Virus record (IMG/VR): IMGVR_UViG_3300049738_000015
Span: 1-32,823 of that record
Length of the DNA stretch: 32,823 nt
Source of the DNA: a virus
Direction: 5' to 3' (one strand)
Position 1 is the stretch's first letter. Each line of letters opens with the position of its first letter. The notes under the pieces were generated by a model that saw only the letters and a list, made by a program, of their open reading frames with translations, did no database searches and was not told the origin of the DNA. Both the position numbers and the translations under genes were made by a program. Positions 2,082 to 4,851 of this stretch are shown here, piece by piece.

Positions 2082-3950
2082 TTATGCTCCTACTAATGCT
2101 TTCGAGAAACCGCCGCCACGCTGTCGGGCATCTGCTACTGCGCCTTTCGCGGCATTGGCAATTTGTGGCATCAGTGTAGCAATTTCTGCCCTAACTGTCT
2201 GCTGTACGCCAGTTGTGACATTAATGGTCTGGTTGACAACGACATTACCGCCACCGCCTCCCATTTTATTATTCGGAATAATGTTACCGCCACTGTTAGG
2301 CACAAATAACTCAGGACCTCGCTCACCAACCAGATATGGAGTGTTACCTTGTACCGGCCCTCCTAGTGCTTTTCCACCGACAGCAGGTGCGGTTGTTCTT
2401 GCGCCTGGGAACATGGCGTCAAATAGAGGCTGTACTATCATGTACTTAACATACATTTTCATTAGAGAGTCAATAATAGACCGCGCCATATCTTTCATAG
2501 CATCTTTGAAGCTTTTCGCGCCCGACATCATATCTGTGAAGCCCTGCACCATAGCGTCAACAGAGCCCGTCACCAATCCATTTAAATCAGAGTCAAAATC
2601 AAAAACCTGATCTTTTACATTCTTAAAAGCACCGCCAACCTTATCCTTAAAATCAAGAGCGCCTGAGACTAGCTTTTCAAACCAGTTCTGCGACCCTAGA
2701 GTGACGATTTCATCCATCAGCGGCTTGACCGCTTCATCCTTGACTTGGCCAACAGAGTCCCTTATTCGCTCTAAACTAGCGACAAGGCCTGATTCGTCAA
2801 ATGGAACAGGGGCTTGTGGGCCAGCTTGCAATTCAGCCAGTTCTTTTTCTAGCTGTATTCTGCGGTCTAGTTTAGCTTCTAACTCTGTATTGCCTTTTCC
2901 TCTTGAAGCCTCGCTGGCTCCTAGTCGGTAAAGCTCTGTATTTAATTCTTTCAGCTCTTTCTTTTTCTTTTTGGTTTCCTCAGAGTCAAAGAACTTTCTA
3001 TACACAGATTGCACTTTAAATGCCATAGTCTGTAGTGCATTCGCTATCCCTGCTATAACCTCTACTATCTTAATGAACGCATCAATCGTGCCTTTCGCTA
3101 TGACGTCACCTATCTTAGAAACATCACCGTCAGCGGCTTTTAGGCCGAGTTCAACCAGTTCATCAGAGATAGCTTTGATAGCAGGGGCGAATGAAGCTAC
3201 AGCTTGACGGCTAAACCCAGTTATCAGCGTCTTGAGTCTACCGAAAGCGTCAACAGAATCTTCAACGCCATCTACTGCATCTTCGGAAAGAACCAAACCG
3301 AGCTGTTCGGCATCTGCAAACATCGCTTTTAATGCTTCAGAGCCAAGCCCTAATGTATTGACCAGCGCGACACCTTCACTGTCAAACAGCTTCATAGCGA
3401 CACGAACCTTGTCGGCTGGGTCGGTGACTGTCTGGAATGCTTTAGAAAGTTCTAGGATTTGATCTTCAAGAGGCAGTTTCAATAACGCTTTAGCGTCAAG
3501 GTTCAACTCTTTGAGCGCACCTTTCGCCTCACCTGTACCTTTGGCGGCTTCAGCAGTTCTTCTTGTGAATCGCTGTAACGCCATATTCATGGTATTGGTT
3601 TCAACGCCAGTTTGCTGTGCGGCGAATTGTAGTTTCGCCAGTGAACCAGCACTAGTGCCTATCTTTGATGAAAACTTGCCGAGGTCATCTATAGACCTCA
3701 TCGTTGAGATAGTTATCGCAGTGAATGCGGCGCCGAATGCGGCTCCTAAACCGAGCGCTATTTTGACTACCTTGCCTATAGCGGCTTTCATCATACCGAA
3801 AGTTTTAGTGACTATAGATGTGAGCTTCGGGAACCTTTTCTTTAAAGAATCAACAGATTTCCCGACTTTGCTAAGATTGCTTCGGACAGCAAGGAATGCT
3901 TTCTTAGTGCTATCTAATCCTTTCAGTGTTATTAGAATTGGTTTTATCAT
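2082..3950 (-). CDS. Tail tape measure protein
   Basis: 622 residues from the ATG at 3950; an upstream in-frame TTG at 3962 is possible but GAGG lies just before the ATG. The N-terminus is basic and helical, followed by a hydrophobic Ala/Gly stretch (about residues 55-80) of the kind that spans a membrane during DNA ejection, then a TMP repeat-like core, a Lys/Glu-rich coiled coil (about 325-375), and a C-terminal part with GGPVQGNTPYLVGERGPELF and a Gly-rich loop, which is highly characteristic of lambda gpH-type tape measures. The length suggests a tail of roughly 90-100 nm. The frameshifted tail chaperone reading frame overlaps its first 41 bases. Confidence 0.92.
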   Translation of the reverse strand: MIKPILITLKGLDSTKKAFLAVRSNLSKVGKSVDSLKKRFPKLTSIVTKTFGMMKAAIGKVVKIALGLGAAFGAAFTAITISTMRSIDDLGKFSSKIGTSAGSLAKLQFAAQQTGVETNTMNMALQRFTRRTAEAAKGTGEAKGALKELNLDAKALLKLPLEDQILELSKAFQTVTDPADKVRVAMKLFDSEGVALVNTLGLGSEALKAMFADAEQLGLVLSEDAVDGVEDSVDAFGRLKTLITGFSRQAVASFAPAIKAISDELVELGLKAADGDVSKIGDVIAKGTIDAFIKIVEVIAGIANALQTMAFKVQSVYRKFFDSEETKKKKKELKELNTELYRLGASEASRGKGNTELEAKLDRRIQLEKELAELQAGPQAPVPFDESGLVASLERIRDSVGQVKDEAVKPLMDEIVTLGSQNWFEKLVSGALDFKDKVGGAFKNVKDQVFDFDSDLNGLVTGSVDAMVQGFTDMMSGAKSFKDAMKDMARSIIDSLMKMYVKYMIVQPLFDAMFPGARTTAPAVGGKALGGPVQGNTPYLVGERGPELFVPNSGGNIIPNNKMGGGGGNVVVNQTINVTTGVQQTVRAEIATLMPQIANAAKGAVADARQRGGGFSKALVGA

Positions 3951-4430
3951 TAGCCTCGCCAACTATATTGTGATATGCCACCCACTCATTCAAGTGGGTT
4001 ACAGGTGTCTGCTCTGCTTCAGCAATGCTCATGTGAAGGCGATCAGCCAAAGATAATAACGTCATCCTTGAGTGATCGCTTTTCAGTTTTTTTCGTGTGC
4101 CTCAACCGAGTCCATATCGGCGAACATCTGATTAGCAATCTCAGAAATAATGTTGGTTTCTTCACCCATTAAATCCATTCTATCTTCTGAGGAAGCAAAT
4201 AGCTTTTCACCGGCTTCGTCTGTAGCTTTCATGCAAATCAAATCCACCATTGCACCAATGGTAGTGTTGTTTAGAAAGTTGGGGTGCTTCTTCTGAAGGA
4301 CATCTAAGTCATAGCAGGTTATCGGCCTGCAATACATCTTAAATGCTCCAGAATCGTCACCCCACGCAGGTACAGTCACTTCTTTTGCATCTACCTTTCT
4401 TCTGCTTCTTAACTCTTTAGCTAATCCCAT
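3910..4430 (-). CDS. Tail assembly chaperone GT, -1 frameshift fusion product
   Basis: If ribosomes slip -1 at the A AAA AAC site (4086-4092), the 115-residue G protein is extended by 58 codons to a TAG at 3910. The extension begins LKSDHSRMTLLSLADRL and continues HMSIAEAEQTPVTHLNEWVA, which resembles the T part of lambda-type GT proteins and related chaperones (LAERLGMS..E....ELxEWxAY pattern). No start codon with a ribosome binding site serves this frame on its own. Position immediately before the tape measure gene, the slippery heptamer in the correct phase and a hairpin six bases downstream all support frameshifting. GT is known to bind the tape measure and recruit tail tube subunits. Confidence 0.85.
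4039..4079 (-). promoter_or_regulatory. Stem-loop downstream of the frameshift site
   Basis: Minus strand GCGATCA (4079-4073) is perfectly complementary to TGATCGC (4045-4039), giving a 7 bp stem with a 27-base loop. It starts six bases after the slippery heptamer, the spacing expected for a stimulatory RNA structure. The long loop leaves room for a pseudoknot, which I could not test. Confidence 0.6.
4083..4430 (-). CDS. Tail assembly chaperone G
   Basis: 115 residues, ending ...DSVEAHEKN followed by TGA at 4083-4085. It lies between the tail tube and tape measure genes, where lambda-like phages encode gpG. It contains the RPITCYDLDVLQKKHP segment and an acidic helical C-terminal half (MVDLICMKATDEAGEKLF) typical of these chaperones. 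A purine-rich AGGGGA precedes the ATG by six bases. The normal product stops here; a minority of ribosomes are expected to slip just before the stop to make the GT fusion. Confidence 0.8.
   Translation of the reverse strand: MGLAKELRSRRKVDAKEVTVPAWGDDSGAFKMYCRPITCYDLDVLQKKHPNFLNNTTIGAMVDLICMKATDEAGEKLFASSEDRMDLMGEETNIISEIANQMFADMDSVEAHEKN
4086..4092 (-). other. Programmed -1 ribosomal frameshift slippery heptamer
   Basis: On the minus strand the last codons of G read GAA AAA AAC TGA; the heptamer A AAA AAC fits X XXY YYZ in the zero frame. Slippage to AAA AAA places CTG next and opens a 58-codon frame that overlaps the stop by continuing into the tape measure start. Confidence 0.85.
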
Positions 4431-4449: not shown

Positions 4450-4851
4450 TTAAGCAGTTGCTTCGACTACAGCGCCACTGCACTGAATGGTAAAGCTGGC
4501 CTCAACCATTCCATCAAATGCGCCAGAGATGTTACGAGAAGTAACAATGCCGCCACCTGAGAAATAAGTTTCTCCAGTACCAGTGCCAGTTGGGTAGATT
4601 TCAAAATCAACGTCAGCACGCTCGTCAAGAATTAATTGCTGTGCATCAGCTTCATCCCAATAGCATTCAATGCTGACTGTGTTAGTTGCTAGACCCTGCT
4701 TGTAAGTTCGTGAAGTGTCACCCATTACTGAATCTTCAATGGTGTCCGCTGAACCTTCAAACGTGAAAGAACGTACTTCGCCAACCACGGCAACAGTCGT
4801 GCCTGAGACTTGTACTTTTACTACTCCAGATGCGCCTGTTTTAGTCGCCAT
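4450..4851 (-). CDS. Major tail tube protein
   Basis: 133 residues, beta-rich, with the pattern GASGVVKVQVSGTTVAVVGE followed by VRSFTFEGSADTIEDSVMGD and SRTYKQGLATNTVSIECYWD. This layout matches small tail tube proteins of GTA-like and lambda-like siphophages, which polymerise into hexameric rings around the tape measure. GAGG lies nine bases before the ATG. It sits between the tail terminator and the tail chaperone, the standard place. Confidence 0.85.
   Translation of the reverse strand: MATKTGASGVVKVQVSGTTVAVVGEVRSFTFEGSADTIEDSVMGDTSRTYKQGLATNTVSIECYWDEADAQQLILDERADVDFEIYPTGTGTGETYFSGGGIVTSRNISGAFDGMVEASFTIQCSGAVVEATA

Follow-up and report, generated by a model that had tools for sequence, protein, structure and literature searches.

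We analyzed a stretch of viral DNA, the 32.8-kb virus record IMGVR_UViG_3300049738_000015, which is called the window below at its full length. The whole tail chaperone locus lies on the minus strand of this record. Its central gene, designated G (4083..4430, minus strand), codes for 115 amino acids in the zero frame and ends with a TGA stop that is included in these coordinates. G sits between an upstream gene for the major tail (tube) protein (4450..4851, minus strand; phrog_10528, E 7.1e-15) and a tape-measure protein ORF (2082..3962, minus strand; phrog_9483, E 2e-55, and Pfam Tape_meas_lam_C). The same order occurs in nine phage records where the genes are named. G matches phrog_344, annotated as 'tail assembly chaperone' (E 7.1e-5). 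An AlphaFold2 model of G built from 78 aligned sequences (pLDDT 80.7) had the HK97 chaperone 2OB9 as its top PDB match (Foldseek E 0.022). Comparing the model with 2OB9 (VIA) gave a Z of 9.1 and an rmsd of 4.3 over 101 residues, with the next rows at 7.4 and 5.7. 2OB9 is the best structural match to the model, but the two share 16% identity, and a PDB profile search with G found nothing at the sequence level. The family match, the fold match, and the gene position support G as a tail assembly chaperone similar to that of lambda G/GT.

The 3' end of G carries the elements of a frameshift signal. The original prediction placed an in-phase A AAA AAC at this end, and the heptamer is indeed there: it occupies 4086..4092 (minus strand) in the X_XXY_YYZ phase, covers the last two codons of G (AAA AAC), and is followed directly by TGA (4083..4085, minus strand). 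A -1 frame of 58 codons, predicted to run into the start of the tape-measure gene, was likewise found as described. This extension, designated T (3910..4086, minus strand), starts at 4086 and finishes with a TAG at 3912..3910, and its end is overlapped by the tape-measure ORF, which has a TTG start at 3962 and its first in-frame ATG at 3950. A Shine-Dalgarno-like GAGG (4100..4103, minus strand) lies 7 nt before the heptamer, and a hairpin (4039..4079, minus strand) begins six nucleotides past it. With 4 occurrences in the window versus 7.25 expected, AAAAAAC shows no enrichment. The heptamer alone is not unusual, so the case for a frameshift rests on its conservation in relatives and not on its presence.

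We collected relatives of the locus from six viral scans, one genome scan, and nine phage records. From each viral scan we kept the best 80 or fewer of the confirmed hits (342, 93, 593, 149, 40, and 427), so the counts below describe the nearest relatives of six seeds and not the whole population. The 450 loci obtained, together with the window, made 451, of which 323 were distinct over positions -90..+120 around the stop; related sequences among these 323 are not independent of one another. We sorted them into six groups by best-matching seed: the group of the window (WIN, 54) and those of Roseobacter phages CRP-823 (R823, 85) and CRP-406 (R406, 27), lake phage DSL-LC06 (DSL, 35), and Pelagibacter phages HTVC112P (P112, 59) and HTVC026P (P026, 63). 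P026 is not a single clade on the protein tree. The genome scan contributed a single relative (L451), on a contig of a Pseudomonadales MAG, which is too little for naming a host.

An X_XXY_YYZ heptamer lies directly against the zero-frame stop in 321 of the 323 distinct nearest relatives, across all six groups. The remaining two (L332 and L333) carry A AAA AAC one codon earlier. An abutting in-phase heptamer is found at the end of one of the 109 window ORFs of at least 60 amino acids, and 4 of 1371 other ORFs of at least 60 amino acids in the relatives' loci have one, versus 321/323 for the chaperone gene. The original prediction staked itself on conservation of the heptamer in relatives, and that conservation extends to every group. 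The 321 abutting heptamers are AAAAAAC (221), AAAAAAG (59, confined to P112 among the 323 relatives), GGGAAAC (34), and AAAAAAT (7). We reconstructed changes in the heptamer on a FastTree phylogeny of WIN G genes (54 tips, last 12 codons left out). The heptamer flips between GGG and AAA starts 6 times on this tree with no intermediates seen, a count that recombination of the whole signal could lower. TAA and TGA swap 9 times on the same tree, and a sense codon never appears at the stop position. Judged from these alignments, the heptamer type changes among relatives while its slipperiness stays. The original prediction had proposed lambda logic with a different slippery sequence. The logic is supported, but the slippery sequence is not fixed, because 34 of the 54 distinct WIN members carry G GGA AAC.

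The A-rich heptamers raise the question of whether RNA polymerase, and not the ribosome, slips here. Stuttering of the polymerase on the A run would fuse the -1 frame to G in some transcripts. Seven consecutive A occur in the window, and in P026 nine A in a row precede a C in 63/63 members (e.g., L088:2785-2794), a run that is possibly a longer slippery run or a site of transcriptional slippage. G GGA AAC in 34/54 of WIN leaves a run of only three A, however, and the GGGAAAC and AAAAAAC forms interchange 6 times on the WIN tree. The fixed spacing of GAGG and the downstream hairpin also point to the ribosome, and we regard transcriptional slippage as highly improbable. One published measurement counts against ribosomal frameshifting as well: in E. 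coli, A_AAA_AAC is described as far less shifty than A_AAA_AAG (PMC5009743), though E. coli may not represent the phage host.

We compared the three reading frames downstream of G using representatives under 90% identity from each group. The -1 frame had dN/dS values of 0.105 (WIN), 0.077 (R823), 0.034 (R406), 0.072 (DSL), 0.170 (P112), and 0.204 (P026), and the tested stretch contained 0 stops in all six groups. The other two frames had dN/dS values of 0.70-4.28 and many stops. Conservation of the -1 frame, on which the original prediction also depended, is therefore found in all six groups, and this pattern of substitution argues that T is a real coding extension under purifying selection in each of them. 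T aligns between groups around LADRL...I.E........EW.AY. It matches phrog_337, annotated as 'tail protein', with E values of 2.3e-6 (CRP-823), 4.7e-6 (CRP-406), 0.0022 (DSL), and 0.005 (window); the same search with T of the two pelagiphage seeds gave no match. As for sequence kinship to lambda gpG and gpT themselves, neither G nor T has a match above cut-off in Pfam or NCBIfam, and T has the weak phrog_337 match. The T model is a three-helix structure (pLDDT 86.9). Its first named structural match, a weak one, is the chaperone of Rhodobacter phage RcRhea (E 0.29, TM 0.66), a protein that is a match to the G model too (E 1.5e-4). Most hits of a PDB profile search with T were short alignments to designed repeat proteins, and we disregarded them. 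The length of T varies within WIN. In the window, L002, and L009 it continues for 57 codons after the stop, and in the other 51 distinct members for 45-46; the extra C-terminal part in the window (3910-3950) overlaps the start of the tape-measure gene.

T could instead be a separate protein, translated without any fusion from an internal start in the -1 frame, such as the ATG that follows AAGG at T codon 8. The AAGG-ATG arrangement is present in the window and in most of WIN. This codon is GTA or ATA in 4/54 members (L008, L066, L033, and L058), however, and no Met occurs at that column in aligned members of the other five groups. T is also conserved upstream of the ATG, and RcRhea and Streptomyces phage Dubu annotate joined products. 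A separate start for T therefore seems to us very unlikely. Among ten related GenBank phage records (L082-L090 and L458), the GT product is annotated in none, though the frame is conserved. Two of these phages have hypothetical genes annotated on the opposite strand inside the T frame, HTVC112P gp41 (L087:2852-2998) and HTVC111P gp45 (L458:1106-1258), which are probably not real genes.

The position of the stop is not a by-product of T coding. The -1 frame codon formed by the last base of the heptamer and the first two bases of the stop is CTN, TTA, or GTN, with A or G as its third base in every one of the 321 abutting relatives. Elsewhere in T, CTY makes up 22-89% of CTN codons, depending on the group. 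T coding would thus permit C or T at the middle base of the stop, and the stop is kept beyond what -1 coding demands. This observation lends itself to a variant of the same mechanism in which the -1 shift would occur mainly late, with the stop codon already in the A site and slippage competing with release factor. The abutting stop would then do more than end G: it would make the proportion of GT depend on how much release factor is present. Besides the retention of the stop in 321/323 relatives, the slip-to-stop distance is also 0 nt in RcRhea, Mcat9, and Dubu, three of six more distant relatives that we inspected, versus published means of 26 and 36 nt (PMC10885494), and work on HIV-1 signals indicates that release factor competes with slippage at a stop after the slippery site (PMC4373837). 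The stop lowers frameshifting in that study, so it could equally be a brake, and the distance is 3 nt (one sense codon) in two of the 323 relatives and, among the more distant ones, in phi3LM21 and Mcat10, and 39 nt (13 codons) in Mae-JY04. We consider a mainly late shift, and with it a working role of this kind for the stop, a serious but somewhat doubtful option.

The description of the signal in the original prediction was incomplete, since it missed the conserved GAGG upstream of the heptamer. GAGG is found exactly 7 nt before the heptamer (-11 to -8) in 240/323 relatives overall: 54/54 in WIN, 82/85 in R823, 27/27 in R406, 26/35 in DSL, 51/59 in P112, and 0/63 in P026. The Glu residue at this codon is spelled GAG in 54/54 WIN, 83/85 R823, 27/27 R406, 30/34 DSL, and 51/55 P112 sequences, whereas GAG makes up shares of 0.41, 0.32, 0.11, 0.12, and 0.30, respectively, of the remaining Glu codons in these genes. 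Protein sequence therefore does not explain GAGG in these five groups. In P026, GAG is used at that Glu codon in 5/56 cases versus a share of 0.20 elsewhere. In WIN, synonymous changes number 0 at the GAGG Glu column and 2-10 at nine other Glu columns. Some further Glu columns of R406 and P112 are fixed as well, but there the codon is GAA. An SD-like sequence 8-11 nt upstream is reported to stimulate -1 shifting (PMC6321510), and the effective position of GAGG is given as 6-17 nt before the second base of the motif (PMC4066793). In the latter survey, of E. coli, 3/13 mobile-element and prophage clusters had a conserved SD and 9/69 clusters had both stimulators. DSL members, such as L336:1834-1852, also have a conserved GAGGA just downstream of the stop, which in some members faces CTCC in a possible small stem.

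The downstream hairpin has a narrower distribution than the other elements. A 7-bp stem was predicted six bases downstream of the heptamer. The position is correct: GCGATCA, starting at 4079, pairs with TGATCGC. The size is not, because these 7 bp form the bottom of a longer, 41-nt hairpin (4079..4039) with 17 bp, arranged as 7 bp, a C.C mismatch, and 10 bp. The 63-nt stretch in the window folds at -21.1 kcal/mol (z -3.73), with 0/200 shuffles as low, and the hairpin alone has -19.3 kcal/mol. The 41-nt segment ranges from -14.9 to -21.7 kcal/mol across WIN (median -18.6, n=54), while two control segments have medians of -6.1 and -3.5 kcal/mol. The hairpin beats -1-frame synonymous shuffles in 16/16 WIN representatives (mean z -3.20). 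Over the 54 WIN rows (41 distinct), 90.2% of cells are paired, compared with 30-49% in slid versions, and RNAalifold retains 11/17 pairs. Two of five pairing measures in WIN do not exceed shuffles, and covariation is limited to one pair, G-C to C-G, which changes 5 times on the WIN tree, on both sides every time.

We looked for a family-wide hairpin and did not find one. Beyond WIN, representatives that beat synonymous shuffles were 11/25 in DSL and 8/25 in R823. P112 has its own short local stem in the consensus, with six pairs that all form in 55/59 members, but it does not stand out against synonymous shuffles (1/14). P026 retains the heptamer and T although it lacks both GAGG and a significant hairpin. 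The expectation that heptamer and stem would both be conserved thus held for the heptamer in all six groups and for the stem in the group of the window. By these comparisons, the 17-bp hairpin is a trait of that group and not of the family. Its lack of conservation outside WIN, its covariation in one pair, the P026 pattern, and the missing Pfam matches for G and T count against the frameshift reading.

A search with G of HTVC026P identified a sister clade in which T lies in the other frame. The marine virus AG-345-A17 (L459) is a relative of this G (E 5e-8) and has its T domain in the +1 frame. We sampled the best 80 of 506 relatives in addition to L459, of which 62 were distinct (L459-L539, e.g., L459:611-1148). 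The +1 frame stays open for at least 61 codons past the stop in 60/62, and in the other 2 there is no stop before the available stretch ends. All 62 run into a -1-frame stop within 8-13 codons, and the -1 heptamer is absent. In 20 representatives, dN/dS was 0.171 in the +1 frame and 1.84 and 1.42 in the other frames. No ATG, GTG, or TTG occurs in the first 25 +1 codons of 48/62 members, which argues against a separate start of T. Just upstream, all 62 have TTR followed by AAA, which places a stop in the +1 frame; the ribosome must therefore change frame beyond this point, at AAA_AG(C). The AAA tRNA would re-pair perfectly after slipping by +1, and it would not after slipping by -2.

The +1 clade has its own candidate signal. 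An invariant 12-nt element upstream of AAA_AGC, GAGGCTAAAGCC (codons GAG GCT AAA GCC), is identical in 62/62 members. Of the 52 codon columns in which a degenerate amino acid is invariant, only five lack synonymous variation: the four codons of the element and the slip codon AAA. GCC is used at other invariant Ala columns in 0-2 of 62 members. GGC-TAAA-GCC can fold as a three-pair upstream hairpin, and work on a bacterial system reports that hairpins placed upstream promote +1 shifting and impede -1 shifting (PMC6321510). Downstream structure was found in 0/23. Profile comparison shows homology of the clade to the -1 families, both in G (E 9e-13 over 81 columns) and in T (E 4e-11 over 47), and a search with its T gave phrog_337 (E 1.8e-7). 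The protein tree places the clade together with DSL, P112, and P026, and the -1 outgroups fall outside. The forks concerned are weakly supported (83/75 and 89/73) and the branch of the clade is long (2.01), so the +1 state is only likely to be derived. We think it probable that the recoding signal is a changeable cassette, with GAGG, heptamer type, hairpin, and A run gained or lost by group and the direction flipped in one abundant clade, and that what is conserved is the T product and not the mode of slippage. The +1 chaperone shifts as such are already known, given the 350 forward cases in the PRFect training set (PMC10885494) and a likely +1 case in a halovirus noted by Atkins 2016 (PMC5009743). 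Among the titles and abstracts covered by our literature search, none describes frameshift direction varying within one chaperone family.

We compared the locus with known recoding systems. The gene position between tail tube and tape-measure genes, the short G, the -1 extension T, and the heptamer near the end of G are shared with lambda G/GT. The lambda slippery sequence is GGGAAAG. The window differs from lambda in its A AAA AAC, its abutting stop, its conserved GAGG, and a T of only 58 codons. Frameshifted tail chaperones were reportedly surveyed by Xu, Hendrix and Duda in 2004 (cited in PMC5009743). The chaperone slip site is A AAA AAC in phiCbK (PMC3556154) and Loki (PMC5313236), as in the window, and G GGA AAC in Colossus (PMC3556154), as in most of WIN. 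The slip site of the Acinetobacter phage Loki is described as lying right next to the stop (PMC5313236), and the available passages on these three phages describe neither an SD element nor a hairpin, unlike what we see in the window. RcRhea and Dubu both have G GGA AAC TGA with the stop abutting, a joined chaperone CDS, and a T domain related by tblastn or fold. Unlike the window, they lack GAGG at -7 (read by eye), and their G is very distant. E. coli dnaX resembles the window in combining an internal SD, an A-rich heptamer, and a downstream hairpin (PMC6321510, PMC5600365, and PMC7282821). The window GAGG falls within the dnaX-type SD range of 8-11 nt (PMC6321510), and the 6-nt hairpin spacer is within the 4-10 nt rule (PMC4066793). 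The dnaX heptamer is A AAA AAG, however, and the genes are unrelated; we note a likeness and claim no membership. A stop against the heptamer is not known for dnaX. The locus is of a kind already known from lambda, HK97, phiCbK, and Loki, a frameshifted tail assembly chaperone. New are this member of the kind, its conserved signal of three parts with the stop directly against the heptamer, and the reversed clade beside it.

We conclude that the gene is very probably a two-product tail assembly chaperone that makes G, and GT by -1 slippage at A AAA AAC. Several lines of evidence favor this reading: the heptamer abuts the stop in nearly all relatives and switches type without intermediates; the -1 frame, and neither of the others, is free of stops with low dN/dS; GAGG keeps its spacing and its GAG codon; the hairpin stands out in WIN; G and T have family and fold matches; and the records of two distant relatives, RcRhea and Dubu, join the two frames into one CDS at G GGA AAC TGA. 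The anatomy of the signal and its conservation are directly observed, and from them we infer the shift itself, its rate, its stimulation by GAGG and the hairpin, and the roles of G and GT. Most ribosomes would read G and terminate at TGA. On A AAA AAC a minority would be held back from behind through pairing between GAGG and the 16S rRNA 3' end, and held up in front by the 17-bp hairpin; both elements would act as stimulators. A held ribosome would slip back one base, its tRNAs moving from AAA AAC to AAA AAA, and would then make GT. The abutting stop may help to set the G:GT ratio through competition between release factor and slippage, which is the least certain step of the model. By analogy to lambda, where this logic is described for the frameshifted chaperone (PMC5009743), many G molecules would coat the tape-measure protein and few GT molecules would bring in the tail tube protein through their T end.

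With these results, the known frameshifted tail chaperones gain a large group from marine phages, whose GT product is overlooked in all ten of the related phage records. GAGG, hairpin, and stop would represent three separately testable controls on one G:GT ratio. A_AAA_AAC is poor in E. coli yet kept by phages of other bacteria, which makes differences between hosts in the rules of shifting testable. Finally, the +1 sister clade offers a way to ask how a frameshift may reverse direction with its product unchanged.
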